A stretch of DNA of 56,119 nt from an uncultured Bacilli bacterium (GCA_947625505.1 CANQON010000009.1:1-56119); one strand, 5' to 3'. Shown: positions 10,239 through 52,126, counted from the first letter of the stretch. Notes: generated by a model not told the origin, from the letters alone. Numbers and translations are program-made.

Positions 10239-10253
10239 TTAAGATCATCCTTT

Positions 10254-11225: not shown

Positions 11226-11236
11226 AACCACACCTA

Positions 11237-11506: not shown

Positions 11507-11524
11507 TTAGCGTCATTCCTTTCT

Positions 11525-12916
11525 TTATGTCCAGTGTGTTTTATCATAAATATTCTCATTAATCATTTCAAATGATTTATGAGCATCTTCACTAGCTCTA
11601 TTTAAAATTTGATCTAATTGATATTGCACTTTTTTAATATTATAAAAGGCATTCTTAGCAATAAATGGTTGATTAATTTTTTCAGACATTTTCTTTTCTT
11701 TTTGATATTTTTTAATAATATCTTTTTTGTTCTTAACGAATGTAGTTTGATAATTTTGATAAATTAAATCCTGTATAAAAATTAAAGACTGCTGATTTTT
11801 GTTCATAGATAAAAAATTTTTATAATTAAAATTAAATAATGCTTCATTAGCGATCTTATTTAAAATTATTTGTTCTAACTCATTAACTTTTTTATCAGCA
11901 AGTTTAAAATCATTCTTTGAATCGGAAATATTATTATCTAAATTTAATTGTTTAATATAATCACGATAAACATCTAACGCTTTATTAAACTTTACACGAC
12001 TAAACCCAATATGCTTGTCAAACATTTCTTTTTTTATTTCTTTTGTTAAATTAATAATTTCTTCATCTCGGATTGAGCCAAAGTCAATTTTTTTAGATGT
12101 TTTTCCTTTTTTATTACGCTCTTCGGTCAGCAACTTTCCTAATCGAACAAATTTTTCCTCTAATGAAAAATTTTTAACATTAGACAAAATCAAATTTTTA
12201 TCTTTATCAGAAAACAACTTTTTTATTTCTGATAATTCTTTATCTATATTTTTTAACATTGGTGCTTGATTTTTTGCATTTTCTACTCTTAATTGAATTT
12301 GTTTTTTCAAAAAATTTAAATCTTCTTGTTCAATTTTACCTTTTCTTCTATATCTTAGTTCTTTAGAAATTTTTGATTTAAAAGCTGGTTTCTTTTCCAT
12401 AAAAGATAAATGAAAGTGAAGATTATCTGTATCATGATGAAACGAAAACTGGTAAGCAATATTTTGAGGTTCAAATCCCATATGTTTTAAGAATGATGGA
12501 ATAATATTTTTTGCAACTTCATATTCAAAATCTTCTAATTTAATATTTTCATTAACCCAATCATTTTGAAATGAACAAACAACTTGATAAAAATTTGAAT
12601 TTTCAATCCACTTAGTCATATCTTTTTTTCTTTTTTCTTTTTCTTCACTTGTTGCATATATAACTTTTTTTGATTTTGCATCATATGAAAAAACAATATT
12701 CTCTTTATCGCGATCCTGATACATGTCTCTTGTCATATAATCAATTGCGCCAATAACAGATTTTGTAGGGTCCGAATAATACTCCGATGACTGTAATAAA
12801 TACTTTTTTATTTTTTTTATTTCCTTTTGGGATTTATTAACTCTATCTGGATTATTTAACGCAAGAATTAATGGGTTTCGAGCATTAGCAATAACTTTTG
12901 GAGAATGTTTAGTCAT
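11525..12916 (-). CDS. Relaxase with HxDxxNxHxH three-histidine motif
   Basis: DNA strand transferase that nicks oriT and leads the strand into the recipient. The metal-binding motif HHDTDNLHFH lies near residue 165; the rest is a charged, helical C-terminal region. The 463-residue length and N-terminal motif layout fit MobA/MobL-like relaxases of Firmicutes; I cannot decide between MOBP-type and MOBL-type without profile searches. Its ATG overlaps the stop of the RHH gene upstream by 8 bases (ATGACTAA), so the two are translationally coupled. The likely oriT lies about 600-850 bases upstream. Confidence 0.85.
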   Translation of the reverse strand: MTKHSPKVIANARNPLILALNNPDRVNKSQKEIKKIKKYLLQSSEYYSDPTKSVIGAIDYMTRDMYQDRDKENIVFSYDAKSKKVIYATSEEKEKRKKDMTKWIENSNFYQVVCSFQNDWVNENIKLEDFEYEVAKNIIPSFLKHMGFEPQNIAYQFSFHHDTDNLHFHLSFMEKKPAFKSKISKELRYRRKGKIEQEDLNFLKKQIQLRVENAKNQAPMLKNIDKELSEIKKLFSDKDKNLILSNVKNFSLEEKFVRLGKLLTEERNKKGKTSKKIDFGSIRDEEIINLTKEIKKEMFDKHIGFSRVKFNKALDVYRDYIKQLNLDNNISDSKNDFKLADKKVNELEQIILNKIANEALFNFNYKNFLSMNKNQQSLIFIQDLIYQNYQTTFVKNKKDIIKKYQKEKKMSEKINQPFIAKNAFYNIKKVQYQLDQILNRASEDAHKSFEMINENIYDKTHWT

Positions 12917-13271
12917 CTAATTTAGTAATTCGTCCAGAATGATAATTCATAAATTCTTGAATGAATGGATTATTATTAGGATCAGTTTTTTTCTCAGGAT
13001 CAAATAACATATCAGAGTATAAATTTTTTGTAAGTTCAAAATTCATATTAATTGTTCGATTTAATTTATTTATTTCTTTCACCAAATTATTATTATCATC
13101 ATCAAAGTTAATTTTTTTTGATTTTGCGTCGGATGTAAAATATTCTCGAATAATAAAATTTATTGCCTCGTTAAAATTTTTACATTTATTATTTCTATTA
13201 ACGAACTTAAAAATTTCTTTATAAAGATCAAGATCAAAATTAATACTTCTCTTTACATATTTTGCATTCAT
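12909..13271 (-). CDS. Ribbon-helix-helix mobilisation accessory protein (MobC-like)
   Basis: A 120-residue protein whose N-terminus (KRSINFDLDLYKEIFKF) looks like a ribbon-helix-helix beta strand plus helix, followed by a second helix (FNEAINFIIREYF) and a helical tail with NKLNRTINMN, typical of MobC-type accessory proteins that bind oriT and assist the relaxase. It overlaps the relaxase gene by 8 bases. AAGGAAG precedes the start. Confidence 0.75.
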   Translation of the reverse strand: MNAKYVKRSINFDLDLYKEIFKFVNRNNKCKNFNEAINFIIREYFTSDAKSKKINFDDDNNNLVKEINKLNRTINMNFELTKNLYSDMLFDPEKKTDPNNNPFIQEFMNYHSGRITKLDD

Positions 13272-13297
13272 TACTACACTTCCTTTCTTAATTTTTT

Positions 13298-13510
13298 TTA
13301 TTTACTGTTTCCTTTCTTTAAAAATTTTAGACACTCTTCTAGAGTGTCAATTATGTCGGCTTGTTGATTAATCAGCAAGCCGACTTTCAAGAAATAATTA
13401 AGCGCGTCGTTGACACTACAATTATTTTTTTCTTTAAATTTATATATTTCTAATTTAAAATCTTGAGATGTTCTAAGTTTAATAGACCATTCTTGATTTA
13501 TATTATTCAA
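13298..13510 (-). CDS. Small ribbon-helix-helix protein with TTG start
   Basis: A 70-residue protein with an RHH-like pattern (WSIKLRTSQDFKLEIYKF, then CSVNDALNYFLKVG). The initiator is TTG at 13,510, five bases after a strong AGGAGG, which decides the start. It is the first gene of the mobilisation operon, immediately downstream of the repeat-rich intergenic region, so it could bind those repeats. Its 3' half contains two large inverted repeats (13,330-13,348 and 13,355-13,384). Confidence 0.65.
   Translation of the reverse strand: MNNINQEWSIKLRTSQDFKLEIYKFKEKNNCSVNDALNYFLKVGLLINQQADIIDTLEECLKFLKKGNSK
13330..13384. repeat. Two strong inverted repeats inside the RHH gene
   Basis: GACACTCT and AGAGTGTC (13,330-13,348, 3-base loop) and GTCGGCTTG and CAAGCCGAC (13,355-13,384) with a palindromic TGATTAATCA core in its loop. 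They are GC-richer than their surroundings. They could be protein-binding sites, a processing signal, or part of the transfer origin. Confidence 0.7.
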
Positions 13511-14260
13511 CGTTTCCTCCTCCTATCTCTTTTTAAATGTGTTATCGTTAGGTTACAATTTATAATTTTTATAAAAAAATTGTTAAAAATATGAAAGGAG
13601 CATAGGATGATTGACACCATAACTAGCGTGTTACCTTATTTTTCAAAGAAAAATTATGGTGTCAAAAACTAATTTTCCATAGGAAAATAGAACACCAATT
13701 ATAAAAATTGGTTTTATAATCAAGGCCTAAAGCCTTACCTAACGATAACACTGAAAAATAACACAGGTTATAGATTAAAATACTTTTTTGTTTATAAATA
13801 AAGGTCTAACGATAACACATAACACTTTTTGGGTGTTATTTTCTTTTTTTCTAGGTTATTTGTAGGTTATTTTTTTAGAACATTTTAATGTTACACTCGT
13901 AACCTATAACCTTATTCATTTAATTTATTCCTTTATTTTTCTATAAATTAGGTTATTAAAATAAAATAACCTTTTATTTGTAAAATAACATTATTTTTTA
14001 ATGTTAAAATAACACATTTTTTTGCGAAATGTTATTTATAGGTTATAACAATATTATTATTTTTCTTTTATATTTCTTACATAAAATAGCATTTTACAAA
14101 TAACATAAAAATAATTTTTAATTTTAATTATCATTTCATTTTATTACTTGCAAATATGTTATTTTAAATATTTACTGGAAGACAAAATATTAATATAAAG
14201 TCTTATTTTAAAGGAATAAGCGCTTTTTCAATAACACATTTTATTTATAACACAAAAGTG
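13511..14260. other. Repeat-rich noncoding region, likely oriT / control region
   Basis: About 750 bases without a convincing long gene, upstream of the mobilisation genes. They hold three copies of a 13-17 bp motif built on CTAACGATAACAC (13,539-13,555 inverted, 13,737-13,751, 13,806-13,818), at least six copies of AGGTTAT or its complement, several GTGTTAT/ATAACAC elements, and a run of hairpins between 13,611 and 13,736. Position next to the RHH and relaxase genes plus this structure suggests the origin of transfer. The nic site cannot be placed by eye. Confidence 0.6.
13561..13850 (+). ncRNA. Possible rightward small RNA across the oriT region
   Basis: A TATAAT box lies at 13,561-13,566. 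A 21-codon frame (13,607-13,672, MIDTITSVLPYF) follows AAGGAG. A 12-bp inverted repeat TTGACACCATAA / TTATGGTGTCAA occupies 13,611-13,665, with three more small hairpins at 13,672-13,688, 13,694-13,712 and 13,722-13,736. The stretch ends in a terminator-like hairpin (13,819-13,839, ATAACAC/GTGTTAT) followed by T runs. Together they could be an untranslated regulatory RNA or a leader. The -35 box is weak, so transcription is uncertain. Confidence 0.35.
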
Positions 14261-15301
14261 TTATTCACTAGTGTTATATTTTGACCAGTTAATGTAGGCA
14301 AAACCATCTAATCTTTGATTTGAATGTCCTACTTGAACTATCTGAAAATGTAAATGATTGCCAGTTGAAAGTCCTGTTGTGCCAACATCAGCTATATGTT
14401 GATTTGCTGAAACATGATCATTTTTAGAAACAACTATTGAGTTAGGATACAAGTGCCAATACCAAATTTCTATTTGTATATTTAATTTTATATCACACTT
14501 TATTTTCACATAATTTGCAATTGCACTTTGTTTATTTTCTTTTTGCGAGTTATTTGTTGCCGTAACAACACCATCACAAGCAGAATAAATTTTAGTTTGA
14601 GCTGGAGCGGAAATATCCCATCCAGAATGATAATCTATGAATGATTCGGAACTCAAATTTACAATTCTTTTGACATTAAAAATAGAAGAAATTGAGATTG
14701 AATTTGTAATTTTTAATGGAAAATTTAAGACTTGTGGATAGCCACTTTCTGATTCAAATCCTGATTTATAAACAGCATTTAAAAACGATTTTGAACATCC
14801 TTTTGAACTATTATAGTCATCATTTTTGCATACTTCTTCAAGTGATTTAAGCGTTCCATTTTCATTTAAAGAATCATTAAAAGCCTTCTTAAAAAATTTA
14901 ACAGCATCATCATTATTATTAGAAATGTACTTTCCCATAGATGAATTATCAATTATTTTAGATACATTAATATCATCATTTTCATTGTAATTATTTAATG
15001 GCTTACAATCATCTTTTCCATCACAAAAATCAGATTGTTCCATTAAAATATTATATAGATATATGCAACGAAAAAGAGGAACATATCCTTTTGTCGTTCC
15101 TTTTAGATGACTGTTTAAAATTTTACGATAATTATTTGAATAATACTCAACAGCAATTTTGTTATTGGTGCTCATTAAAAATTCACTACTATTATCATAA
15201 GAACTGGAACTTTCATCAGCACCAATTATCCCAACTATAACAGCTATGAGCAAGATGAAAATCGCGCTTGCACTGATTATAATTAACTTTGTTTTTTTCA
15301 T
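14261..15301 (-). CDS. Membrane-anchored M23 peptidase (T4SS cell-wall hydrolase)
   Basis: Opens peptidoglycan for the conjugation channel (VirB1-equivalent role in Gram-positive systems). An N-terminal membrane segment (residues 5-26) is followed by an about 170-residue unrecognised region. The LytM/M23 domain comes last: HSGWDIS supplies the first His and Asp, and HLHFQ near residue 318 the later His pair. It starts 3 bases after the virB4 stop (AATAATGAGTAAAAAATG), so it is coupled to virB4. An ATAACAC/GTGTTAT hairpin spans its stop codon. Confidence 0.88.
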   Translation of the reverse strand: MKKTKLIIISASAIFILLIAVIVGIIGADESSSSYDNSSEFLMSTNNKIAVEYYSNNYRKILNSHLKGTTKGYVPLFRCIYLYNILMEQSDFCDGKDDCKPLNNYNENDDINVSKIIDNSSMGKYISNNNDDAVKFFKKAFNDSLNENGTLKSLEEVCKNDDYNSSKGCSKSFLNAVYKSGFESESGYPQVLNFPLKITNSISISSIFNVKRIVNLSSESFIDYHSGWDISAPAQTKIYSACDGVVTATNNSQKENKQSAIANYVKIKCDIKLNIQIEIWYWHLYPNSIVVSKNDHVSANQHIADVGTTGLSTGNHLHFQIVQVGHSNQRLDGFAYINWSKYNTSE

Positions 15302-15304
15302 TTT

Positions 15305-17812
15305 TTACTCATTATTTTCTCGGTGCTGAGCTTTTCTTTTTTTAGTTTCACCCATCATATCTTCTTCTAATTTTGTACCTACTACTTTAACTGGAATTCT
15401 CGTTTTATCATCTATGTTTAATAAAAAATTTCCTTGTTCGGCTGTTGATAAGAATTCACATTGAGTATCGGTTAACGGGTTTTGCTTAAACAACTCTTTA
15501 TAAGCTGTAAAGTCATCTTCTTTCATTTTGCCAATTAAACTGTACTGACAATTATTAAAAATTGCTCGAGCATATTTTACAATTTCATCATTGCCAATCA
15601 AGTCTTGAATTGATTGAGTAGCAAACAAAAATGATCCTTTATATTTACGAATTCGTCGAGCTAATTGGGATAAAAACTTCAAGATTTCTGGTTGTTCAAT
15701 AAATATATGAAACTCATCCACTACAATTGTAAATGTATTTACTTCGCGATTATCTCGTTCATTTTTTATTTTGTTACCGATTATAACAGTATTTAAATAA
15801 GTTAATAATGACACAATTTGCGTGGCTATCAAACGATCATTATTAGATGCCAATAGCTCTTGTAAATTAAAGCAAATTATATCATTATTTAAATCGATAG
15901 TTGTGTACCCATTAAATAAATAACTATCAGTTCCGTAAATAAACCGAGATAATAATATCTTTAATTGATTCAATATTTTCAATTCATCTATTTCTTTTTC
16001 TTGAGATATATAATTCAAAATTAAGTTATATAAATCTGTAAAAGTTGGATATTCTGTATTAGATTTATTTTCTAATTCTTCGATTGTTGTTGAATGTGTT
16101 ATACCAAAATTTTCATATAATTGCTCTAGAATTTTGGTCAAAACAATAAACTCCTTTTCAGTTAAATTTGAAAATGAAGTATAAAAAAAAGATTCCAAAT
16201 AACCCAAATGTTTAGCTAAAGGACAATTTTTGAATGTCAAATTTTGTAATTCGTCGTCTGATTCACTAGGTAGTAATCTTATTTGAAGTGGATTAATTAT
16301 TCCTCCCTCTTGACTATAAAGATTAATAAATTCACCATTATTTGCTTTAACCAATTCGCTATATTCACTTTCAACATCAAGAATAAAAATTTTAGATCCG
16401 CGTGCATAATTATTTAAAATTGTTTTTTTCATCAAATAAGATTTGCCACTTCCAGAAGTTGCAACAACTGCAACATTATGATTCATTCTCGTTGCTGATA
16501 GATAAAATGGATCAAATAAAATTGGCAATTTAGAATACGAGTTGTCTCCTAAATAAAACCCTTTTTCATCAGCAAAATAAGAATGTGTAAATGGAAAAGA
16601 TGCAGATATTGATAACGATGGCTGTGGTAGTGCATAATCCTTTAAAGGAAGTGTAGTTATATCAAATGATTGCCATGTTTCCATCTGACGAAAACGAGTA
16701 ATATCTAAAGTAATATCGTAAGCATCCGCAATATTCTTTAATATTTTTGTCTTTTCCTCAATTTCTTTTTGTGTTCCTTTTACCACAAAAATAACATTAA
16801 ATTCACGTAACTTTTCATTGCCTGTTTTTAAGTCCATCATTAAGGCTGAATAGTTTTCATCTTGCTGAACCATTTCGGCTTGACTTGACAAATTCTTCTT
16901 AGTTTTCTGATCAGATTGTAAAGACTTGTAATTAAAATCTAATGTTTTTATAAAGTTTTGTTGATCAACAGAATCTCTTATGTTTATACAAGAATTAACA
17001 CCGCTTACATTATAGATTTCATCTAAAAAGCTATCTCTTAATAAAAATGGAGGTAACTTTCTTATAGATAATAGCTGAATAAAAGTATTGTCGACCTGGA
17101 TATTATTAATGTTTTCCTTTAAATAGGAAGGTGAAATTAAGTCAATCATATCACTCCACATTAAGGTTTCAAGTGAATTATTTTGAAGATATAATTCAGA
17201 TAAGAATTGATAAACTTCAAGTTTATTTTCAACTCTTTGAATAAGCATCGGATTAGATAAATTATTTAAAATATTTCTTAATTCATCATAATTGTCAAAC
17301 AAAATTTCTTTAGTACTTTGTATTAAAACCCAATAATATTTAGAAGAGGTAGTTATATTTGTATCCTGGGCTAAATTAATTGTCTCTAAAGAATCTTGAA
17401 GTAAAGCAACTCTTCTAGGATTAGAAGATTGCTTAATAATTTCATAATTTAAATTAACAAAGTTTTGGTTTAAATTAATTGGTCTATCAAATTTATAGCA
17501 TTTTAAATTCAAATTTGGAATTAAATATGCATATTTTAATTGCTTATAAAAAATCTCTTTATCAGCTGTACTTGACAAATAAATATCTATGGCTGGGATA
17601 GAAATTAATATAGCAAATTCACCACTTTTTAATTCTATAATACCATTTTCATCGACACATTTAACATTAGAAAAACTTTTAGAATTCATAACTTGATTTC
17701 TCATACGATGAATTTCAGTATAATTATCATTATGCCATTTTTTTATCTTTTTTAAAAATTTATGTTTATCAGAATTTAATTGTAAATTGGTCAAGTTTTT
17801 TCGATTTTTCAT
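15305..17812 (-). CDS. virB4: VirB4-family conjugation ATPase
   Basis: Cytoplasmic ATPase powering the type IV secretion channel. Walker A is ATSGSGKS near residue 450; Walker B is TIVVDEFHIFI near residue 705; downstream KGSFLFATQSIQDL matches the family's conserved Gln-containing segment. At about 835 residues it is full length. I chose ATG 17,812 (MKNRKN) because AAGGAGG precedes it by 9 bases; the longer frame would contain that site. It overlaps the PrgI-like gene by 44 bases. Confidence 0.95.
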   Translation of the reverse strand: MKNRKNLTNLQLNSDKHKFLKKIKKWHNDNYTEIHRMRNQVMNSKSFSNVKCVDENGIIELKSGEFAILISIPAIDIYLSSTADKEIFYKQLKYAYLIPNLNLKCYKFDRPINLNQNFVNLNYEIIKQSSNPRRVALLQDSLETINLAQDTNITTSSKYYWVLIQSTKEILFDNYDELRNILNNLSNPMLIQRVENKLEVYQFLSELYLQNNSLETLMWSDMIDLISPSYLKENINNIQVDNTFIQLLSIRKLPPFLLRDSFLDEIYNVSGVNSCINIRDSVDQQNFIKTLDFNYKSLQSDQKTKKNLSSQAEMVQQDENYSALMMDLKTGNEKLREFNVIFVVKGTQKEIEEKTKILKNIADAYDITLDITRFRQMETWQSFDITTLPLKDYALPQPSLSISASFPFTHSYFADEKGFYLGDNSYSKLPILFDPFYLSATRMNHNVAVVATSGSGKSYLMKKTILNNYARGSKIFILDVESEYSELVKANNGEFINLYSQEGGIINPLQIRLLPSESDDELQNLTFKNCPLAKHLGYLESFFYTSFSNLTEKEFIVLTKILEQLYENFGITHSTTIEELENKSNTEYPTFTDLYNLILNYISQEKEIDELKILNQLKILLSRFIYGTDSYLFNGYTTIDLNNDIICFNLQELLASNNDRLIATQIVSLLTYLNTVIIGNKIKNERDNREVNTFTIVVDEFHIFIEQPEILKFLSQLARRIRKYKGSFLFATQSIQDLIGNDEIVKYARAIFNNCQYSLIGKMKEDDFTAYKELFKQNPLTDTQCEFLSTAEQGNFLLNIDDKTRIPVKVVGTKLEEDMMGETKKRKAQHRENNE

Positions 17813-18101
17813 ATCGTAAAACCTCCTTCTCATTTTTTAAAAATACATAAGTATGTATATGAAAAAAATAATATGCTATCATATACACAATTTTATAAAC
17901 TCTATTTTTATTAGAAATATTAATTGGCATTAATAAAAAAATGCCAATTATCATAAATGCCAATCCTAATTTTGGCTGATTAAAAACTGACATTGTTATT
18001 AAAGTTACAACTAAAATAATAGTACCAAAGAGAAAGTCAGAAAACTCAAAATTTTTAACTCCCAAATTTTTCTTTGTGCTATCAATTGTAATATAAGTCA
18101 T
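17769..18101 (-). CDS. PrgI/VirB3-like small T4SS membrane protein
   Basis: A 110-residue protein with two adjacent membrane helices (about residues 23-62) and a charged C-terminus. Size, topology and position between VirB6-like and VirB4 genes match PrgI-family/VirB3 proteins. Its ATG shares a base with the TAA of the VirB6-like gene, and its 3' end overlaps virB4 by 44 bases, implying tight translational coupling. Confidence 0.8.
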   Translation of the reverse strand: MTYITIDSTKKNLGVKNFEFSDFLFGTIILVVTLITMSVFNQPKLGLAFMIIGIFLLMPINISNKNRVYKIVYMIAYYFFHIHTYVFLKNEKEVLRYEKSKKLDQFTIKF

Positions 18102-21611: not shown

Positions 21612-22292
21612 CTATTCCTCACTTTCTAATTTAAAATAATAAACATCTTGTTTCTTATTGCTATTATTCGTACAAGTGTACAAAATTAAATATTTTTCTT
21701 GAGATGGTAAATGAAGTTCAATTTTACCTGTCTTTTTCACGGTTTCTTTTTTTACTAACATAAACTTATATTTAATATTTTTATAATAAATATAAGCATA
21801 ATCCTTGTTTTTTAATTTATATAATTTATCAAAGTAACATATAGAACATTTTCCAGAATGACCACCAATTATAGTTGGAGCATTACTATCTGGATAATCT
21901 CCATCTTTATTAATTTGAAGTCCATAATTAATAGAATTACGATAATAGGTTTTGGAATAAAACCCTTTTTTTAATTTGAGTTTTGGTATTTCTAATACAC
22001 CAATAATTTTAGAATTACTCTTTTTAACGGCAGTTGATGAGTTTTTTTCTTGTGGTGTCTTTTCATTAGATTCATTATTTTCATGTTCTAAATTGGTAAC
22101 TTCATCTTCATAATTAGCTATGAATTCGTCAACTAATTCTTTATTTTCTTGATCATATTTTTTTTCATTATAATTTTTATAAAAATGATAAGATAAAAGT
22201 CCAATTGAAATTAACACTAACAATATACTTAAAATTAAAAAATAAGAATTCACTTTTATAAAAAATTTTTTTCTTCTTTTAATTTTTTTCAT
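21612..22292 (-). CDS. Sortase with atypical active site
   Basis: A transpeptidase predicted to attach the neighbouring adhesin to the wall. The N-terminal membrane anchor (residues 12-31) is followed by a linker and a sortase fold: GVLEIPKLKLKKGFY, the catalytic His in IIGGHSG (about residue 145) and Cys in LYTCTNN (about residue 207). After the Cys, where sortases normally carry an Arg (R-V/I-V), this protein reads KKQDVYYF, so the Arg seems to be replaced by Lys or Gln. The ATG overlaps the small membrane protein gene by 14 bases. Confidence 0.85.
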   Translation of the reverse strand: MKKIKRRKKFFIKVNSYFLILSILLVLISIGLLSYHFYKNYNEKKYDQENKELVDEFIANYEDEVTNLEHENNESNEKTPQEKNSSTAVKKSNSKIIGVLEIPKLKLKKGFYSKTYYRNSINYGLQINKDGDYPDSNAPTIIGGHSGKCSICYFDKLYKLKNKDYAYIYYKNIKYKFMLVKKETVKKTGKIELHLPSQEKYLILYTCTNNSNKKQDVYYFKLESEE

Positions 22293-22451: not shown

Positions 22452-24536
22452 TTATTGTTTCCTTTTTATAATGAAATAACAAGTGGCACAAACAATAGCA
22501 CCGATAAATAAGATACCAGCTAAATATAAATCTGTATTGTAAGATCCAGTATTAGAAGCTAAAACTAATCTATATCTATTATATAAAGTTGCTGTTAAAG
22601 TTGCGTTGCCTTCCTCAACTTCAAATTCATACTTAGTATCATCTAATTTATAGCCTGTTGGTGCTTTGGTTTCTTGATAATAATATTTACCATAAGGTAA
22701 TTTTGTAAAACGAACTACTCCACTTTCATTGGTTATACCACAAGCAAATAAAGAACCATCTTCTTTATAAACACAAATTTCTGCACCACTAAGTAAAGCA
22801 TCATCTTCAAATGCTCTTTTTTCAATTTCAATACTTGTTTCTTCATTGGTAAAGCTTTTTTCATACAGAACGCCGTATTCTGTAACACTAAATTCATGTT
22901 TATCAGTATTTAAAATATATCCTTCTGGTGCTTCTGTCTCAATAAAATAGTAATTACCCTTTTCAAGATTTTCAACATATAGTCTACCATCTTTGTCAGT
23001 TTTACCTTCATATACTTTTTCTTCATCACCATTATCTTTAACTAAATACACTTGAATTGTAGCACCTTCAACTGGTTCTGAACCACTAATATCAGTTTTA
23101 GTTATGATGACCTTACCCAATTTTAAATTAACTAATTCGAATTGAAAAATCTTACTATCTTCCGTTACAGAAAATTTAATATCATCTTGTTTTACATAAC
23201 CTTCAGCACTAACAATTTGTCTCAAAGTATACTCACCATATGGAAGAGTAATAATTCCAAGTCCTTTTTCTTCTGTTGTGATAGTCATAACCACTTCATT
23301 TTTAGAATTTAGAACTTCAAAGACAGCACCTAATTCTGGTTGGTATCCTTCATATTCAGAACCATAAGTTTTTTCTATTAAAACCTTACTCTTAATAACT
23401 GTATCAAAAACATCAATTGAAATCTCTTGACCGATGTTTTCTTTTGTTACTTCAATTGTGTAAACTTTATCGGATAATAAATATCCCTCTGGTGCTTTGG
23501 TTTCTCTCAAAGTATAAGTACCAACATTTAACTCAATCTGACTATTTAATGCGCCAGTTTTATCAGCAACTAGAGTTTCAATAACTTGATCTTCACTATC
23601 TCTTAACTCATAGGTAGCACCTTCAAAAGTTGCATCTCCTTGTGTCTTGTCATTAGTTTCAATATCTCTCTTATATGGTTTAATAATTGCTCCTTTAAAT
23701 TCAACATTTATATTAGCCATAACTGGATCTGGACGACCTAATACAGCTAATTTTTGATAAGTTCCAGCTGTATATAAATAGTTATGAGTTGCAAGACTAT
23801 TAGTACCTTCCTCTTTTCTTTTTAAAGTAACAGTAGCTGTTCCAATTTTATTAGATGTAACAATTAAATTGTTATCTTGAATTTCAGCCTCACAGCCATC
23901 ACAAGTTGCAACTTCAAAGTTAGATAAGATATTATCAGCATCAGTAAAAATAGCACTTTCACCTACTGGAACTATTTTCTTTTTTGTGTCAAAATTAGGA
24001 GTTTTAGTTGCATTGGCTATTCTATTTTCAATTGTTGTCATTTTTTTAGTTACATTATTTGTAGATGTAGCTCCTGCTGAAACACTTGCATTTCCTTGAA
24101 CATTCCAAATTAATAATTGTGTTGCAAGGTATGTAGCTTGCGCTGTATCTCCATTATATCCATAACCATAATAAGCAATGCGTTGTAGTTTTGCAAAAGT
24201 AGCCTCATCTTTAATGCCAGCTTCTTTTAAGTTAGAAGCATTTAAAGTTTTTCTAGTATAAGCATTAGCTTTAAATGAACTATGAGTACCTGGTTCGATA
24301 CAAAAAGCTGTATTACCATCACTCATTGAAAAAAGTCCAGCCCCTGTATTTTTCATAGTGTTCTTGCCATCTTTACTTGATGTATCTACATACCATTTAT
24401 ATTCTCCTCCCGTTTTAAAACCTTTCCACTTTGCTGTATAAGAGGCTGCAAAAACATTAACATTCATTGCTAAAAAAGTAAAAACTCCAATAATTAAAGC
24501 TAAATATATTTTCTTTAATTGATTAAAATATTTCAT
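22452..24536 (-). CDS. Thioester-domain, Cna-B-repeat surface adhesin
   Basis: A 694-residue secreted adhesin or pilin. The signal peptide is residues 1-31 (ending VNVFAAS). A thioester (TQXA) domain has Cys in NTAFCIEPG and Gln in ATQLLIWNV. Four SpaA/Cna-B-like domains follow, each ending in an ETKAPEGY-type motif (TLRETKAPEGY, TLRQIVSAEGY, FIETEAPEGY, YQETKAPTGY). The C-terminus has VLASNTGSYN, a membrane helix and KRKQ. The sorting motif is thus SNTGS-like rather than LPXTG. It probably mediates mating-pair contact. Sortase lies downstream in the operon. Confidence 0.93.
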   Translation of the reverse strand: MKYFNQLKKIYLALIIGVFTFLAMNVNVFAASYTAKWKGFKTGGEYKWYVDTSSKDGKNTMKNTGAGLFSMSDGNTAFCIEPGTHSSFKANAYTRKTLNASNLKEAGIKDEATFAKLQRIAYYGYGYNGDTAQATYLATQLLIWNVQGNASVSAGATSTNNVTKKMTTIENRIANATKTPNFDTKKKIVPVGESAIFTDADNILSNFEVATCDGCEAEIQDNNLIVTSNKIGTATVTLKRKEEGTNSLATHNYLYTAGTYQKLAVLGRPDPVMANINVEFKGAIIKPYKRDIETNDKTQGDATFEGATYELRDSEDQVIETLVADKTGALNSQIELNVGTYTLRETKAPEGYLLSDKVYTIEVTKENIGQEISIDVFDTVIKSKVLIEKTYGSEYEGYQPELGAVFEVLNSKNEVVMTITTEEKGLGIITLPYGEYTLRQIVSAEGYVKQDDIKFSVTEDSKIFQFELVNLKLGKVIITKTDISGSEPVEGATIQVYLVKDNGDEEKVYEGKTDKDGRLYVENLEKGNYYFIETEAPEGYILNTDKHEFSVTEYGVLYEKSFTNEETSIEIEKRAFEDDALLSGAEICVYKEDGSLFACGITNESGVVRFTKLPYGKYYYQETKAPTGYKLDDTKYEFEVEEGNATLTATLYNRYRLVLASNTGSYNTDLYLAGILFIGAIVCATCYFIIKRKQ

Positions 24537-44952: not shown

Positions 44953-44970
44953 ATTGACACATTTATTATA

Positions 44971-44994
44971 AAAAATAAAGCTTTTTTATTTTTA
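44971..44994 (-). terminator. Terminator of the peptide-modification operon
   Basis: AAATAAA/TTTATTT stem with GCTT-type loop and T run leftward, overlapping the ATP-grasp stop. Confidence 0.55.
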
Positions 44995-46878
44995 TTCCTT
45001 TATATTGGATTTATCAATTTTTTTTAAATCAATAAATTTTCCTATTTTAAAGTCAAAAGATGTTGGTACAAATCTCGTAAATAATCCTGGATCAAATGAT
45101 ATTTCTCCAACATAGATACGATTACCTACTTCGTAAAAATCAATTCTAACTAGTGGAAACTCTTTAGATAATATCGATGCAATCTCTAGCATTTTTTTTA
45201 ATTTTTTAGGTTTTTGGACATTTTTATCTATATTATATCCAGGGCGTACAGTAGGATATACTTCCCAAGTATATGGATTTACAAAAGTATGGGAATGTTT
45301 ATGATTATTAACAATAATAGTCATTATCACTTCATCAAATGATGCATAAAAATTATATTCAATTAAATTTCCATCATCTAATAATTCTTCAATTAAAATA
45401 CGAGGCTTTATCTTTTGCTCTGTTATGCACATATTTTCATAGTAATAAGAATTCCATGGATATATCCAGTTGGAACAATTCATTTTAAGAACAGATTCAT
45501 TTTCATATTGTTTATTTATTACTACTTTTATTTGTTTACTTGCCCGTCCAGCTGTAGATTTAATAACAAATCTATTTGGTAAATCATCCCATATAATATC
45601 ATTAGGATCTGTATAACACCCAATACTAGGGATAACGTATTCTTTTCCGATTTTTTCTTTTAAATACTCTTTTAACTCATATTTATCAGTTAAAGTGGAA
45701 ATTAAAGGATTTTTATAATATAAAGCAAGCCATATTAATTTTTCATTAAATGATTTAGGATTTTTTAAGTTAGGAAAATATAATAACGTACTCATAGCTT
45801 TATTTTCACAATAACGTAATTTTTCATCCAAACTGATTTTATTTTCTAAGTAATAAGCTTGTTTAGGTTCTAATTTTTCTAACCACATATAATCATCAAA
45901 ATACATTGGTTTAGGCAAATTAATAAGTTTTCCCATCTCAAAGTCAGATTCTCTAGGAGTAAATTTTCTCATGCCTCCACCAGAATAAAAAGTCATCTCC
46001 CCGACATATACTTTATCAGCAGTTTCGTAAAAATCAACTCGTACATATGGAAAGGGTTTAGATAATTTTTCAGCAATCAATTTCATTTTTTCAAAATATT
46101 TTGGCTTTTTTGCTCCTCCATTCGTCTTAGGATAATTTCCATACATAAAAGGTAGTTCATTAAAATTGGCATCAAACCAGTTAGATGTCTTATTAATAAA
46201 GCGATCTGTCGTAATACATATAGCTTTACATATTCCATCAAAGCAGTGAAATTTATAATCGTAAATCTGGGTTGAATCACCTATTTCTGATATATATTTT
46301 TCAGCATAAATAATTGGAGTAACATATTTATATCCCCAATTAAATAAAGTGTAATATGAGTTAGAACTAGGATTCATCCAAGTATGTAACTTGGATCTAA
46401 TTTCTTCTTCATTAATATCTTTTTTATTTGGAACAATAATATTAAAACCACTTGACCAATTTACTTTTATAACAAAAGAATCAGGTAACTTAGAAAAATC
46501 AATATCATCTGGATTAGTCCACCAATCGATAACAGGGACTACATATTCTTTACCTATTATGTTTGATACATATTCTTTAACAGCAAATTTATCACAACAT
46601 TGAATTATTAGGGGATTTTGATAATTTAATTTTAACCACATAATTTTTTGGTTAAAGCTTTGAGGATTAGACCAATCCATATCATATTCCAACATTTTCT
46701 TAAAAGCATCATTAATAATATTTTTTTGCCTACTTATGTGTAGTCTATGATCCATAAGTAAATTATAATTACTTTCATTAAGTTTATAACTCTTTTTATT
46801 ATCATCTAAATACCAGTTAATAAGAACACTTGTTATTTTAATTATTTTCTTTTTGACCAATTTTTTTATTTTAGACAT
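44992..46878 (-). CDS. Tandem TupA-like ATP-grasp protein
   Basis: A 628-residue protein made of two related halves, each like a complete TupA-like ATP-grasp enzyme (family members are usually about 300 residues). Half 1 (about 45-325) has SFNQKIMWLKLNYQNPL, DKFAVKEYV, VPVIDWWTNPDDIDF, VRVDFYE, YVGEMTFYSGGG. Half 2 (about 355-620) repeats this as SFNEKLIWLALYYKNPL, DKYELKEYL, IPSIGCYTDPNDIIW, VRIDFYE, YVGEISFDPG. ATP-grasp enzymes ligate carboxylates to amines; TupA is linked to teichuronopeptide synthesis. ATG 46,878 follows GGAGGGGG. Last gene of the operon. Confidence 0.88.
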   Translation of the reverse strand: MSKIKKLVKKKIIKITSVLINWYLDDNKKSYKLNESNYNLLMDHRLHISRQKNIINDAFKKMLEYDMDWSNPQSFNQKIMWLKLNYQNPLIIQCCDKFAVKEYVSNIIGKEYVVPVIDWWTNPDDIDFSKLPDSFVIKVNWSSGFNIIVPNKKDINEEEIRSKLHTWMNPSSNSYYTLFNWGYKYVTPIIYAEKYISEIGDSTQIYDYKFHCFDGICKAICITTDRFINKTSNWFDANFNELPFMYGNYPKTNGGAKKPKYFEKMKLIAEKLSKPFPYVRVDFYETADKVYVGEMTFYSGGGMRKFTPRESDFEMGKLINLPKPMYFDDYMWLEKLEPKQAYYLENKISLDEKLRYCENKAMSTLLYFPNLKNPKSFNEKLIWLALYYKNPLISTLTDKYELKEYLKEKIGKEYVIPSIGCYTDPNDIIWDDLPNRFVIKSTAGRASKQIKVVINKQYENESVLKMNCSNWIYPWNSYYYENMCITEQKIKPRILIEELLDDGNLIEYNFYASFDEVIMTIIVNNHKHSHTFVNPYTWEVYPTVRPGYNIDKNVQKPKKLKKMLEIASILSKEFPLVRIDFYEVGNRIYVGEISFDPGLFTRFVPTSFDFKIGKFIDLKKIDKSNIKE

Positions 46879-46899
46879 GATTACCCCCTCCACCATATA

Positions 46900-48042
46900 T
46901 TATTCTTTAATGTGTTTAATAGTTTCAAGTTCCATCTTCAAATTTTTCCTTCTAAATATTAAAGTCTTAAATATTCGATATACATAATAAAAAGGAATCA
47001 GTATAATACTTTTTCCAATAATAAGATGATGCTTTAAAATCCATTCCCTATTTGGAAAAGCTCTACTTAATAAATATTTACTCTTATTTATACTAGTTAT
47101 ATTTCCATCTTTATTTATTAAAGAATATCTAACATAATTTTCGTAATTACCATAAGCTCCTGAATCAATAATATAATTAAGCATACTTTCTTCTTCTTTC
47201 GTTAAAATTAATTTATTATTTACTTTGGTAAATAATTTGATAACTAAAGTATGAATTTTTTGTTCAAAACTATCTAATTTAAGAAACTTTAATTCTTGTT
47301 TTATATAATTCCAATCTAAACTTTTTTCTTTTTTAGTTAAATAAATATAAATATCTATCAAAGATCTTAAGCCTGTTCCCCCAGACTCATAATGTTTAAA
47401 AGTATGAGCTACTAAAAAAATATAAAAATCATTATCAGTCATACAGTATTCATATTTATTATTAGAACTAGTTTTTAACTTATGTTTAATATTCGCATAA
47501 TAGCGATACCATGATTCATTATAACTTTTTTTGAATAAGCTTACATGCATTTCAAAATTATAGATAGGTTCTTTTTTATAGGTGTCATGTAAGTCATCTT
47601 CAAATTTTTCAACTGTATAGCCAAATTTTTCCATAATATTACTTACTTCGTATCTTTTTGTTTTATCAATTAAAACATCAATATCAGCCATTTGACGCAT
47701 CTCTGCCTTAGGATATAAATCTCGCATAATTATTCCTTTAAGAGGCATATACCATATTTTATTTTTAACTAATTGTGAAAAGATTTGCTTTCTTTCTATT
47801 TCAAACAAAATATTTTTACGAATTGCTTTTTCTTTAGCTATTTTAAACTCGTCTTTAATTATTGATTTTTGAAACTTTTCACTATCTTTTAATGCTGAAT
47901 AAATCAAATATTCAATTTGATGTTTTTTGCTTAAGCTATAAATTTCAAATAATATATTTTTATCTATTTTTTTTTCTAATGGTTTTATTCCATGAACAGA
48001 ACAGGCTATTAAATATATAATTAAATAATTAATATCACTCAT
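46900..48042 (-). CDS. NTP_transf_5-type nucleotidyltransferase
   Basis: A 380-residue protein with the core MPLKGIIMRDLYPKAEMRQMADIDVLID (quoted in parts: MPLKGIIMRDLYP and MRQMADIDVLID, about residues 95-122), the GS/xDxD-like pattern of this uncharacterised nucleotidyltransferase family. FEMHVSLF further on also fits. Such proteins recur in peptide-modification clusters beside HPr-kinase-like and PqqD proteins. Four bases separate it from the peptidase gene. It may transfer a nucleotide to peptide or sugar; substrate unknown. Confidence 0.85.
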   Translation of the reverse strand: MSDINYLIIYLIACSVHGIKPLEKKIDKNILFEIYSLSKKHQIEYLIYSALKDSEKFQKSIIKDEFKIAKEKAIRKNILFEIERKQIFSQLVKNKIWYMPLKGIIMRDLYPKAEMRQMADIDVLIDKTKRYEVSNIMEKFGYTVEKFEDDLHDTYKKEPIYNFEMHVSLFKKSYNESWYRYYANIKHKLKTSSNNKYEYCMTDNDFYIFLVAHTFKHYESGGTGLRSLIDIYIYLTKKEKSLDWNYIKQELKFLKLDSFEQKIHTLVIKLFTKVNNKLILTKEEESMLNYIIDSGAYGNYENYVRYSLINKDGNITSINKSKYLLSRAFPNREWILKHHLIIGKSIILIPFYYVYRIFKTLIFRRKNLKMELETIKHIKE

Positions 48043-48045
48043 TTT

Positions 48046-48480
48046 TTAAATCACTTTCTTAGTTTTAAATAAACGTTTTATTTTTAATATACAAATTCTT
48101 AAATAAAATAAACGACACCAGAACAAAACATAAGTCTTATATCTTAAACTTGATATTTTTAATAATCTTTTATTATGCACAATACCTGTTAGCACACCAA
48201 TTATTTGCTCAGGATATACAGGATATTCTATTTTATAACGATTATCACCACATAAACCATAATTACCATTTTTTATTTTCAAAATACGATGTAAAACATA
48301 TTGTCCAGATAATCTTTTATATAAGACAACGTCATATCTTTTTAATTTTCTAGTTATTTTTTCTATGACTGCTAAATCCTGATGTTCTTTCAAAATTGGT
48401 AACATGCTATCGCCAACATTATGATATATTATCCTACCATGCTTCTTTACTTCAAGTTCAAATGTTGATATTTCATTCAT
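48046..48480 (-). CDS. S26/S24-type signal peptidase-like protein
   Basis: A 144-residue serine peptidase: VGDSMLPIL holds the catalytic Ser (about residue 24), RYDVVLYKR and YVLHRIL (about residue 75) provide the His-type partner as in SipW-like enzymes, then GDN. A C-terminal hydrophobic/basic stretch could anchor it. Overlaps pqqD by 8 bases. It may cleave the operon's precursor peptide or its leader. Confidence 0.82.
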   Translation of the reverse strand: MNEISTFELEVKKHGRIIYHNVGDSMLPILKEHQDLAVIEKITRKLKRYDVVLYKRLSGQYVLHRILKIKNGNYGLCGDNRYKIEYPVYPEQIIGVLTGIVHNKRLLKISSLRYKTYVLFWCRLFYLRICILKIKRLFKTKKVI

Positions 48481-48733
48481 CTATCGCACCAATACTTTTT
48501 AACTGTTTAATAACATTTTGAACATCAGTAACAGCTGTTTTTCTATCCACATCATACTTATTCAATATCGCATTAATAAGTTTTTCCTCTGATATATCTT
48601 CTTTTAAACAATCAGCAATAAAAGCAGATACTTTATTTAAGTGCACTATACCAGAAAAAATTTGATTATCCACAGTAACTAAAACATTTTCATCATTCAT
48701 TTTATAATTTATAAAACTATCTTTTAATTTCAT
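48473..48733 (-). CDS. pqqD: PqqD-family peptide-binding chaperone
   Basis: An 86-residue PqqD-like winged-helix protein (VTVDNQIFSGIVHLNKVSAFI, then KYDVDRKTAVTDVQNVIKQL). PqqD proteins (RRE domains) bind leader segments of ribosomal peptides and hand them to modifying enzymes. Its presence between kinase-like and peptidase genes is the main reason for reading this operon as a peptide-modification system. Confidence 0.88.
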   Translation of the reverse strand: MKLKDSFINYKMNDENVLVTVDNQIFSGIVHLNKVSAFIADCLKEDISEEKLINAILNKYDVDRKTAVTDVQNVIKQLKSIGAIDE

Positions 48734-48737
48734 ACCA

Positions 48738-49469
48738 TCACTCTCTAGTTATCTCTTTATAAGCTATCTGTGCAGCTTCCATATCCATATTACAATATAT
48801 ATTATAAAAATTAACTTGTTTTATAAGTTCGTCAACTAACCTAAGTGTTTTAACTAATAACTTTTTATCTTTTGGTTTATAAACTTGATTTAATATATTA
48901 AATAGAATTTGTTTTTTATCTATTGACTCTACTGCATTAGTAATATTTTGATTTATAAAGCAAATGTTTTTTAAAGGAACAGATGTATTAGTATTTAGAT
49001 TGTTTTTACCACTCCATGGGGTTCCATAAGCTATAATCTTATTTTTATTTATCTTAATTAATGGCTTATCATCATTAATAATCTTTACCCTTGATTTAAA
49101 TACTTTATGCCATAGAGCTGTATGAGTACTTTTACCAACACCACTTTTACCTGTAAAAAGGTAACCTATTCCATCCATGCTAATAAGGGAGCCATGGATA
49201 AGAACTATATCATAATTTAAAAGTATTTCAACTATTTTACGATAGATTGCTAAATATTCTAAATAACTATTAGAAAAAGGCTGTGCCTCTATCCCCTCAA
49301 GCTCAGCCTCTTTATTTGATTTTATTCTTTCATAACTAATATCTTCCATGGTTACAAAAATTTCAAAATCCTCTTTTTCGTGTGTTAAGTAATTCTTACA
49401 GTAATGTAAAGAATAATTATAAATATTATTTATAAGGAATACTTTATCAGCTATTTTAATTTTAAACAT
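48738..49469 (-). CDS. HPr-kinase-like P-loop kinase
   Basis: A 243-residue protein whose core (GYLFTGKSGVGKSTHTALWH, about residues 105-124; IINDDKPLI; YGTPWSGKNNL) matches HprK/P-like kinases of peptide clusters rather than true HPr kinase, which has an extra N-terminal domain and other motifs. In lasso-peptide clusters related kinases phosphorylate Ser of the peptide. The adjacent Ser-rich precursor is an obvious candidate substrate. Confidence 0.88.
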   Translation of the reverse strand: MFKIKIADKVFLINNIYNYSLHYCKNYLTHEKEDFEIFVTMEDISYERIKSNKEAELEGIEAQPFSNSYLEYLAIYRKIVEILLNYDIVLIHGSLISMDGIGYLFTGKSGVGKSTHTALWHKVFKSRVKIINDDKPLIKINKNKIIAYGTPWSGKNNLNTNTSVPLKNICFINQNITNAVESIDKKQILFNILNQVYKPKDKKLLVKTLRLVDELIKQVNFYNIYCNMDMEAAQIAYKEITRE

Positions 49470-49478
49470 GTTTAAATA

Positions 49479-49865
49479 TTATTCTTTCCAATAATCACAA
49501 TAAAAAGATCCGTTTTCTCCAAATAAATCTTGATCTGGAGTACACTTTAAATCCTCTCTCGTACAATCACTTTCAGTTCCATTAAACCACCTGCCTTGTT
49601 CATCTTGATAACAAGCAGTATGAACATTAGAGCCTGCACCTTCTCCGCTAGTTCCTCCACCTAAAGTTGATCCAGAACCAGAAGATGAACTTGATCCAGA
49701 TGAAGAACCCGAACTAGAAGATGAACCTGAGCCTGTTTCAGTACCTTGACTGTCATTACCTGATGGTCTATTAGGTGTTGAACTTGTAGTTATAATATCT
49801 TCAGTTGCAAACCTAGTTATCTCTAAAATTGGACTTTCGTATTTATCTTTGCAAACTTTTTTCAT
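49479..49865 (-). CDS. Precursor-like peptide: leader, Ser/Gly spacer, four-Cys core
   Basis: A 128-residue protein. Residues 1-25 (YESPILEITRFATEDIITTS) form a leader of the E-S-P-x-L-E-I-x-x-F-x-T-E-D-I type seen in short Firmicutes/Bacteroidota peptides. Residues about 33-80 are a Ser/Gly/Thr spacer. Residues about 81-128 carry four cysteines (TACYQ, SDCTR, LKCTP, FYCDY). No signal peptide is seen. It is the first gene of the operon, consistent with a modified, secreted product. I cannot name a known class. Confidence 0.72.
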   Translation of the reverse strand: MKKVCKDKYESPILEITRFATEDIITTSSTPNRPSGNDSQGTETGSGSSSSSGSSSGSSSSSGSGSTLGGGTSGEGAGSNVHTACYQDEQGRWFNGTESDCTREDLKCTPDQDLFGENGSFYCDYWKE

Positions 49866-49888
49866 AAATTCTACTCTCCTTTTATTAC

Positions 49889-49916
49889 ATTATATCATAA
49901 AAAGTTCATTTCGTAA
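49889..49916 (-). promoter_or_regulatory. Promoter of the peptide-modification operon
   Basis: Leftward TTACGA, 16-base spacer, perfect TATAAT; AAAGGAG then the ATG at 49,865. Confidence 0.7.
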
Positions 49917-49950
49917 CACAAAATGTGTGACTTACGTTATGTAATACATA
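49912..49950. promoter_or_regulatory. Operator-like inverted repeats between divergent genes
   Basis: GTAACACA-AAA-TGTGTGAC (49,913-49,931, one mismatch) overlaps the -35 of the leftward promoter, nested in CGTAA...TTACG (49,912-49,936). A 13-bp palindrome TATGTAATACATA follows (49,938-49,950) upstream of the RHH gene. Likely binding sites of the RHH protein. Confidence 0.55.
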
Positions 49951-49980
49951 TTAGTTACAATTTTTTTAGGAGGAACATTT

Positions 49981-50175
49981 ATGGAAAAATTTAAATTACC
50001 TAATATTAATGAAGAAAAATCTGTATTAAAAACCATACGTTTAAAGCTTACAACACTTAATAAAATTGAAAAAATATCTCAAAAAAGTAATATATCTGTA
50101 AATAGATTAATTAATGAGTGTATAGAATTTGCTTTAAATAATCTAAGCGATGATGAATTAAAAAAGTTTAAATAA
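49981..50175 (+). CDS. Ribbon-helix-helix regulator divergent from the peptide operon
   Basis: A 64-residue protein with KTIRLKLTTLNKIEKI and ISVNRLINECIEFAL, a CopG/Arc-type ribbon-helix-helix fold. AGGAGG precedes the ATG. It starts 115 bases from the precursor gene on the opposite strand, with palindromes between, so it probably represses itself and the operon. Confidence 0.72.
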   Translation: MEKFKLPNINEEKSVLKTIRLKLTTLNKIEKISQKSNISVNRLINECIEFALNNLSDDELKKFK

Positions 50176-50210
50176 AAAAAGTTAGATAGTCTGTGCATCT
50201 AACTTTTTAT
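50174..50210 (+). terminator. Terminator of the RHH gene
   Basis: AAAAGTTAGAT/ATCTAACTTTT stem, 11 bp, 9-base loop. Confidence 0.8.
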
Positions 50211-50220
50211 TATTAATAAG

Positions 50221-50400
50221 TTAAAGTAACAATAAACAAAGGATAATAGCAATTAGAATAATAACAATTAAAATAATTAATAAAATATTTATTGGTGAAT
50301 TTACTTTAGTAACTAAGTCTGTTTCATTTTCACTATCAGCTATTTCTTCGTAATCTTCATCAATATATTCACTTTCATTAACAGGTGTATTATTATTCAT
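50221..50400 (-). CDS. Small membrane protein coupled to ezrA
   Basis: 59 residues: acidic N-terminus (NESEYIDEDYEEIADSENETD) and one C-terminal membrane helix (about residues 37-59). ATG 50,400 lies inside the last codons of ezrA (ATGAATAA, 8-base overlap) with GGGAG upstream, so it is translationally coupled and may be a partner of EzrA. Not recognised. Confidence 0.62.
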   Translation of the reverse strand: MNNNTPVNESEYIDEDYEEIADSENETDLVTKVNSPINILLIILIVIILIAIILCLLLL

Positions 50401-52126
50401 ATGATTCTCCCTCATTATCAGGTTTATACATCTTAAGTAATCTATCATATATACCTGGTTCTATCTTATTTAATAAATTAATTGTTAATTCTAAAGATTT
50501 TTGATATTCTCCCTTTAAAAATAACTGTTCAGCTAAATTTAATTTATTACTCAATCCATCAAAACTACTACGATATCTATTACCATAGATAATAACTGTT
50601 TCAGCAAAAGCTGCTGTACGTAATAATTCTCTAGTTTTAGAGTACAATTTTAAAACTAAATCACGAGCAGTATCAACTCTAGTATTTAAAACACTAATTG
50701 TTATAGGTTTCTTATCTAACTCTTTAACAATCTCACGAATCGCACTACTAGCTTCATTTAATTCTACATAATAGCTTTGTGGAATAACAGGAAGATTATA
50801 TTCACGCATCTTTAATTTAGCATCTTTTAAAACAACTTTAATCTCTTCTAATTGTTGACGAGCTCTTACTTCATCTTCACGCATATTACCTAAAGTATCT
50901 AAAGTTGAATCTAAACGATCTTCTAAAGTAGCTAATCTATTAATAAGTAATTCTAACTCTTTTAGCATTTTCGAATAAGCAAAAGTATTCTTCATCATAT
51001 GTTCTGCTAAACTCTGATAATCCTCATCAATAACTTGTAATTCCGCATATATTTGTTTTAAAGTATTAATACTATCTTCTGATAAATTATAAACATTTTT
51101 TAGATCTTCTAATTGAGCAAAGATATCATTAACAACTTCATTTACTTTAGCTAATTTATTTTTAAAATTATTATTTGTTTCATTATAAGAGGCACGAGCA
51201 TTCTTCTCTTTCTCAAAATCAGCAAATAAAGATTCAAAATAATCTAATAAAACTTTTAACTCAAATAAACTATCTTCAAGATTTAATTCTTGGGTACGAA
51301 CAATTATATCATTAATCTTCTTATTAGCTTCATCAACATTATATTCAACATTTAAATAATCTAATGGATAATTAGCTTTTAGCATTTTATTATAGACATC
51401 TTCTACTTCAGCTATCTTCTTTGGTAAAACACTCTTACTAAGAAGTAATATAGAAGGTACTTCATCAATAACAATACTCATATGTTTTAATAAATCATCA
51501 ATATTTTTTAAAACACCATTTACTTCCGTATAATCATTATTATCCATAATAGCTTCAAAATCTTCAAAATGTTTAGATATTAATTCAAAGCGATTAGCAA
51601 TAATAGGTGCGATATTACCAAATTCATTCTTACTATCCTCAAATTTTTGATGTAATTCACGGAATTTTACTTTAAAATCCGTAATAATAACTCTACTTCT
51701 TTCTTCACTAGAAGTTATCTCTTTTATTTCTCCTAATAAAAAGTCTGAATTAGTTCTTACTTTATATAATTCCATCTCTAATTTAGCTATCTTATATAAA
51801 GCAGTCTTATAATCTTTTTGTGATAATGAATATTCTGTTTCTAACATCATATCTGTTAATTTAGGAATTTGTTCATCTTTTATAATTTGTAATCTTTTAG
51901 TCCACTCTTTATACATAGCTTCCACTTTTTCATTTTTTAAAAAAGCTTCGACTTTAGCTAGTTCAGGTATAATTGGTGAAGAATCAATCTTATTCTTTTC
52001 AATTTCTAATTCACTTAAAGACTTTTTAATACGTTTTGTCTTACGGCTACGAACAAAATATATGGCTGATATTAAGAAAATTATAGCTACTACAGCCATA
52101 GTTATAATAACTAATGTCTCGTTCAT
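50393..52126 (-). CDS. ezrA: Septation ring formation regulator
   Basis: A 577-residue protein with an N-terminal membrane helix (residues 5-25, LVIITMAVVAIIFLISAIYF) and a long cytoplasmic coiled-coil, spectrin-like body, as in EzrA, which restrains FtsZ ring formation and helps divisome assembly. ATG 52,126 follows AGGTGAT. The gene is divergent from rpsD, the same neighbourhood as in Bacillus. Confidence 0.93.
   Translation of the reverse strand: MNETLVIITMAVVAIIFLISAIYFVRSRKTKRIKKSLSELEIEKNKIDSSPIIPELAKVEAFLKNEKVEAMYKEWTKRLQIIKDEQIPKLTDMMLETEYSLSQKDYKTALYKIAKLEMELYKVRTNSDFLLGEIKEITSSEERSRVIITDFKVKFRELHQKFEDSKNEFGNIAPIIANRFELISKHFEDFEAIMDNNDYTEVNGVLKNIDDLLKHMSIVIDEVPSILLLSKSVLPKKIAEVEDVYNKMLKANYPLDYLNVEYNVDEANKKINDIIVRTQELNLEDSLFELKVLLDYFESLFADFEKEKNARASYNETNNNFKNKLAKVNEVVNDIFAQLEDLKNVYNLSEDSINTLKQIYAELQVIDEDYQSLAEHMMKNTFAYSKMLKELELLINRLATLEDRLDSTLDTLGNMREDEVRARQQLEEIKVVLKDAKLKMREYNLPVIPQSYYVELNEASSAIREIVKELDKKPITISVLNTRVDTARDLVLKLYSKTRELLRTAAFAETVIIYGNRYRSSFDGLSNKLNLAEQLFLKGEYQKSLELTINLLNKIEPGIYDRLLKMYKPDNEGESYE

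Follow-up and report, generated by a model that had tools for sequence, protein, structure and literature searches.

The question raised by this locus is what a row of six genes, which joins a small peptide to a kinase, a PqqD-type protein, a peptidase, a nucleotidyltransferase and an ATP-grasp ligase, does in the genome of an uncultured Bacilli bacterium. HprK-like, PqqD and NTP_transf_5 proteins have been found together in lasso-peptide clusters (PMC7533575, PMC9266682). The analysis presented here showed that the operon represents an uncommon form of a cassette for peptide modification that gut bacteria carry, and that its novelty is the TupA-like ATP-grasp. Very probably its product is a small peptide that is decorated by the kinase, the nucleotidyltransferase and the amide-forming enzyme, the last borrowed from pathways of the sugar coat.

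The window, that is, the whole stretch of 56,119 nucleotides that was analysed, carries six minus-strand ORFs between positions 44,992 and 49,865, separated by 9, 4, -8, 3 and 21 bases, a spacing that makes a single operon very likely. The earlier note had described six tightly spaced genes with one promoter and terminator; the genes, their coordinates and their spacing were confirmed, and the promoter was supported. The divergent promoter region (49,866-49,980), read directly from the sequence, contains upstream of ORF1 a good extended -10, TGATATAAT, and a ribosome-binding site, AAGGAGAG also precedes ORF1, and the imperfect palindrome GTAACACAAAATGTGTGACTTAC is a possible operator. The terminator was not supported, since a scan of the operon 3' end yielded none that passed; a hairpin of A+T only, with a T run, lies near 44,960-44,990. 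The start of the last gene is probably at 46,878, behind GGAGGGG, rather than at 46,896.

ORF1 (49,479-49,865, minus strand) encodes a peptide of 128 amino acids to which no domain family was assigned. It consists of a leader, MKKVCKDKYESPILEITRFATEDIITTS, a Ser/Gly/Thr-rich spacer and a C-terminal four-Cys domain ending in CDYWKE, the last without a relative in 296 genomes of the class. The same leader is present in small peptides adjoining the cassettes of other gut bacteria, with the family consensus YxxPxxEIIxFxxEDVITTS followed by variable tails, which in the Clostridia loci are mostly short (4-29 amino acids) and often acidic. A leave-one-out leader profile, trained without the window, was run on the 513 ORFs of the window and matched ORF1 solely (E 3.2e-9, all others not below 0.1), while none of 13,295 shuffled ORFs reached E 0.01. 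Among 57 matches in the loci, a few of which are duplicates, 48 lay on the same strand and within 3 kb of cassette genes, the 3-kb surroundings of these genes on both strands making up 52% of the DNA. The entropy of 41 peptides anchored by a regular expression was 0.7 bits at D-6, 0.9 at E-14 and 1.1 at both F-10 and Y-20, and 2.9-3.6 bits after the TTS motif; the final Ser is imposed by the anchor, and most unanchored peptides carry Ser too. Hence, the locus has what characterizes a RiPP cluster, namely an encoded precursor with a conserved leader and a variable core, and modifying enzymes alongside, and the alignment bore out the idea of a precursor with constant leader and variable tail next to the HprK/PqqD/NTP_transf_5 set. 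The proposal that the Ser-rich spacer is the phosphorylation region did not extend beyond this locus. The spacer is peculiar to it, and 19 of the 41 relatives lack Ser/Thr after TTS (13 lack Ser/Thr/Tyr), which rules the spacer out as a family-wide kinase site. A recognisable leader peptide was present in 18 of 28 complete cassettes with at least 500 bases upstream. Operons in which no precursor was recognised do therefore occur (10/28), but are not the rule for operons of this type; the earlier note held operons lacking a precursor to speak against its reading. In two loci (L066, L079) the gene preceding the cassette encodes a lipoprotein with a Ser/Thr-rich linker.

The cassette occurs widely among the Firmicutes of gut and rumen. 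A scan with the kinase alignment gave at least 286 HprK-like relatives in genome contigs, mostly of gut and rumen Clostridia, and relatives came from the rumen, rabbit, horse and other guts. In 80 loci the same-strand neighbours of the HprK-like gene included PqqD (66), S26 (60), ABC (41), NTP_transf_5 (34), radical SAM (7) and TupA (2), counts that are lower bounds because several contigs end early and in which ABC stands for any ABC protein close by; the genes usually run peptide-HprK-PqqD-S26-ABC-NTP5. The S26 peptidase, previously thought to stand in for a lasso protease, is thus a regular member of a separate cassette. Loci of this usual order in Clostridia and a radical-SAM RiPP cassette (G096, L007) share leader, core enzymes and order with the window, and differ from it in having an ABC exporter, sometimes with a radical SAM, where the window has TupA. 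An HprK-related kinase adjacent to a PqqD-related protein also occurs in SynChlorMet (ScmC/ScmD) and in the NCBIfam HprK-related kinase A/B cassettes; the models of these gave weak matches with scores far below the cut-offs, and the partner genes are others. A literature search on the leader motif and on HprK/PqqD RiPP cassettes found no published description.

The kinase (48,738-49,469, minus strand, 243 amino acids) matched PF07475 at 6.7e-7 and 29.4 bits, below the curated cut-off of 33.3, and reached only 30.8 bits in TIGR00679, whose cut-off is 240, which sets it apart from HPr kinase/phosphorylase proper. Its AlphaFold model (pLDDT 95) has the HprK/P and PEPCK folds (Z 11.3-12.5), and H92, K113, D133 and D134 are invariant in 32 relatives; this His-Lys-Asp-Asp set was reported as essential in lasso-peptide kinases (PMC9266682). 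The PqqD-type RiPP recognition element (48,473-48,733, minus strand, 86 amino acids) matched PF05402 above its cut-off (5.3e-12), and its closest solved structure is that of TbiB1, a lasso-peptide B1 protein (2.9e-4). The S26 peptidase of Sec11/SipW type (48,046-48,480, minus strand, 144 amino acids) matched TIGR02228, the archaeal/ER-type signal peptidase model, at 1.5e-6, below cut-off, and its profile matched human SEC11A (0.0016); the Ser, His and Gly-Asp boxes of the ER-type enzymes (S25, H64, G78-D79) are invariant, and no N-terminal transmembrane segment was seen. The nucleotidyltransferase (46,900-48,042, minus strand, 380 amino acids) belongs to the NTP_transf_5 family (PF14907, 8.5e-44, above cut-off). 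Its model (pLDDT 92) has the nucleotidyltransferase fold of ANT(2'')/LnuA/MenT1, that is, aminoglycoside/lincosamide nucleotidyltransferase-like (Z 9.9-10.9), and D120 and D122 of its DID motif, of the DxD type, are invariant in 24 relatives. PsmN, an annotated nucleotidyltransferase, was reported to decorate the phospho-Ser of pseudomycoidin with one or two hexoses (PMC9266682). Fusions S26-NTP5 (L194, L195, L073) and HprK-S26 (L204) were also observed among the relatives.

The last gene (44,992-46,878, minus strand) encodes a tandem TupA-like ATP-grasp of 628 amino acids, with two copies of PF14305 (1.5e-88; 296.8 bits, cut-off 25). The enzymes of microviridin-type graspetides are ATP-grasps of RimK/MdnB-C type; here PF14305 was the only model matched at E up to 1, and a search of solved structures with the tandem gave no match. 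Domain 1 keeps the ATP and metal residues K138, E193, K209, D282 and E294 and looks catalytic. Domain 2 is probably degenerate and not catalytic, because K209 has changed to N, Y183 to E and G215 to E, and K, Y and G are otherwise 100% conserved. The NTP_transf_5 and TupA genes of the window are separate but share a reading frame, which one TAA interrupts. The earlier note advised searching for homologues of the operon with an identical gene order, and two were found, both from rabbit gut: that of a Clostridia genome (L099) consists of MKETYETPEVEIIEFDAEDVITTSGIYE, kinase, PqqD, S26, a 702-amino-acid NTP5-TupA fusion and a second TupA, and the other (L100) has MKEVYETPQLEIIEFEAEDVITTSGIYE, the same gene set and a damaged duplicate. 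No exporter gene was found in these two operons or in that of the window; all three lack the ABC exporter that roughly half of the relatives carry, so that the export previously suggested is not supported as it was worded. In a tree, the cassette TupAs (window domains 1 and 2, L099 and L100) stand apart from 31 others, mainly linked to polysaccharides, with support 98/97, on long branches that include the window TupA. The column of N180, occupied by Glu in 100% of those 31, has N and C in the window domains and M, M, N and N in L099/L100, and the loss of a Gly is shared by window domain 2 and the L099/L100 TupAs. The NTP_transf_5 tree does not join the window with the rabbit loci, which makes a separate swapping-in of TupA possible; the ligase may have been recruited independently in the window and the rabbit cassettes.

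The operon was acquired horizontally, since its site is empty in genus relatives and its kinase is rare in the order. The host is of Bacilli type, since its class sample includes Kandleria, one of the Erysipelotrichia-type Bacilli. In the host genome (1.66 Mb, about 95% complete) the operon lies between ezrA with a small membrane gene (50,221-50,448) and an NlpC/P60 gene (44,163-44,918), beyond which follow thiI, a small acid-soluble spore protein gene and miaB. Genus relatives keep the order ezrA, small membrane gene, NlpC, thiI, spore protein gene, miaB with the operon absent; in one (L219) nothing but about 140 bases separates NlpC from the small membrane gene. The inserted segment extends approximately from 44,962 to 50,215. 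The kinase was found in none of five sampled genomes of the genus, clear relatives occurred in only one other of 288 genomes of the order, and neither a kinase paralogue nor a second copy of the leader was found elsewhere in the host genome. Viral contigs gave no relative of the kinase, and plasmids gave three weak ones (26-33% identity). A divergent 64-amino-acid ORF (49,981-50,175, plus strand), which is within the same insert and could regulate the operon, resembles by eye a ribbon-helix-helix regulator; it had no significant match in a Pfam search and is absent at this site in genus relatives and from all other loci compared. In another genus relative an unrelated gene of about 170 amino acids occupies the ezrA/NlpC site (L218:2700-3310), a variable insertion spot.

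The favoured reading, to which we give a probability of about one half, is that of an acquired RiPP-type operon, for which we infer the chemical steps, the sequence in which they occur and what becomes of the product as follows. PqqD would bind the ORF1 peptide at its conserved leader, and the HprK-like kinase would phosphorylate Ser/Thr, most likely in the TTS at the leader end, because this is the only hydroxyl site common to the family; the relatives that lack Ser/Thr after the motif likewise place the site in TTS, if the peptide is the substrate. NTP_transf_5 would add a nucleotidyl or a sugar group to the phosphate, comparable to the hexose transferred by PsmN, the TupA-like ATP-grasp would amidate a carboxylate of either the peptide or its decoration, and the Sec11-type peptidase would remove the leader. 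The peptide carboxylate is favoured because no clear UDP-glucose dehydrogenase was found in the host genome. The C-terminal Glu would be the preferred site, because Glu is the last residue in each of the three peptides of TupA cassettes (and in 8/38 of the peptides without TupA), an argument that is drawn from two independent lineages and provides a lead. Only tentatively may the cassettes be regarded as a distinct gut RiPP class in which the leader-end TTS would be phosphorylated and then nucleotidylated or glycosylated, with TupA re-aimed to form a peptide amide.

The main conflict in the favoured reading concerns the peptidase: if it cuts after T-x-S, phosphorylation of TTS fails for the mature product, and it is just as possible that the invariant Ser occupies position -1 of an S26 cut site, which would leave TTS outside the product. 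The short tail would then be the product, and kinase and nucleotidyltransferase would act on another residue, on the four-Cys domain or on some other substrate. The positions do resemble a signal-peptidase site (-3 mostly T/A, -1 Ser, -2 freer, 2.16 bits vs 1.51), and the enzyme has Sec11-type Ser-His residues, but the Ser belongs to the anchoring expression, albeit shared by most unanchored peptides, and with the 13 tails devoid of Ser/Thr/Tyr the kinase would find nothing in the product to act on; we regard this account as unlikely. A comparable degree of doubt attaches to the possibility that the peptide is glycosylated through its phosphate with a uronic or other acidic sugar and that TupA amidates the sugar acid. 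The TupA-like domain of Cj1438 (Cj1438C), in the Campylobacter capsule, amidates a sugar carboxylate, that of glucuronic acid (PMC11800379, PMC12409886), the fusion of a glycosyltransferase with TupA is paralleled by the NTP5-TupA fusion of L099/L100, PsmN adds hexoses, and the polysaccharide and TupA clusters L189 and L196 combine TupA with NTP_transf_5 and with a UDP-sugar dehydrogenase, respectively. However, as no clear UDP-glucose dehydrogenase was found in the genome, the uronic-acid amide was no longer kept as the main model; the Glu invariant in other TupAs is also missing from the cassette enzymes, and the operon has no glycosyltransferase.

The other TupA genes whose neighbours were examined lie beside glycosyltransferases, flippases and Wzy, so that the linkage to polysaccharide synthesis, a further point the earlier note would have counted against itself, holds for most TupA genes elsewhere and is not the rule for operons of the window type. 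With Cj1438C and the TupA of teichuronopeptide the window enzyme shares the PF14305 fold and K138, E193, D282 and E294 of domain 1, and fusion to a preceding transferase is found both in surface-polysaccharide TupAs and in the window's relatives; the window TupA differs in its tie to a leader peptide rather than to glycosyltransferases, its separate clade, its replaced Glu and its degenerate second domain. That the genes serve the decoration of surface polysaccharides or surface proteins, with ORF1 an unrelated secreted or surface protein, would accord with this prevalent location and with cassettes that flank the Ser/Thr-linker lipoproteins or large secreted proteins. It is nevertheless most improbable, given that ORF1 carries the cassette-linked leader, that the stretch from ezrA to thiI is free of polysaccharide genes, and that L099/L100 pair the same leader peptide with TupA. 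The clusters of paeninodin (PadeK/ThcoK) and pseudomycoidin (PsmK, PsmN) also have a His-Lys-Asp-Asp HprK-like kinase, a PqqD-type B1 protein, a nucleotidyltransferase-type gene and a small leader-bearing precursor (PMC9266682), and their gene set could suggest a lasso cluster that lost its cyclase. Such an origin is hardly credible, as the Asn-synthetase-like cyclase and the transglutaminase-like B2 protease are absent from the operon, whose six genes are of other families, and from the conserved set of its relatives; S26 and TupA are present instead, and the family has a different leader, with TTS, and different tails, with no general C-terminal Ser.

In the favoured reading the surprise is the leader family together with the re-aimed TupA, rather than the HprK/PqqD/NTP_transf_5 set itself. 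The leader marks an apparently large uncharacterised peptide family in gut Firmicutes, and the operon points to the possible recruitment of capsule-type amide ligases for work on peptides. The joint role of HprK-like kinases and NTP_transf_5 beyond lasso peptides becomes a testable question: GIYE after TTS, in the 28-amino-acid peptide of L099, is the shortest of the predicted tails and of a size that suits simple in vitro experiments, and the cultured strain Kandleria vitulina DSM 20405 would be a practical experimental host. In this strain (L038:7735-13582) a 117-amino-acid peptide with the same leader is accompanied by ABC, acyltransferase 3, PqqD, HprK, S26 and NTP_transf_5 genes.

Several further observations were made in the loci and in the window. 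The polysaccharide cluster that contains NTP_transf_5 (L189:569-13609) has three TupA genes, two glycosyltransferases, a flippase and a Wzy-like gene. Peptides of 38-46 amino acids with a related start, KxYExPxIEIIxF (L044, L045, L047, L050, L053, L054, L057), are encoded directly upstream of, or overlapping, genes for secreted proteins of 500-1600 amino acids near HprK/PqqD/S26 cassettes of other Bacilli, some lacking TTS and having Trp-rich ends. In L124, L129 and L130, four-Cys peptides (DERDIITKSNCYDCACNEPGEC...) adjoin HprK and S26, and a radical SAM gene is close by. By eye, the window also carries VirD4-like and VirB4-like ATPases, a relaxase-like gene and further genes of this kind (5740-17,833), an integrative conjugative element apparently apart from the operon, and a 694-amino-acid protein in which SpaA-type domains are repeated and a membrane anchor forms the C-terminus (22,452-24,536), adjoined by a sortase-like gene (21,612-22,292).
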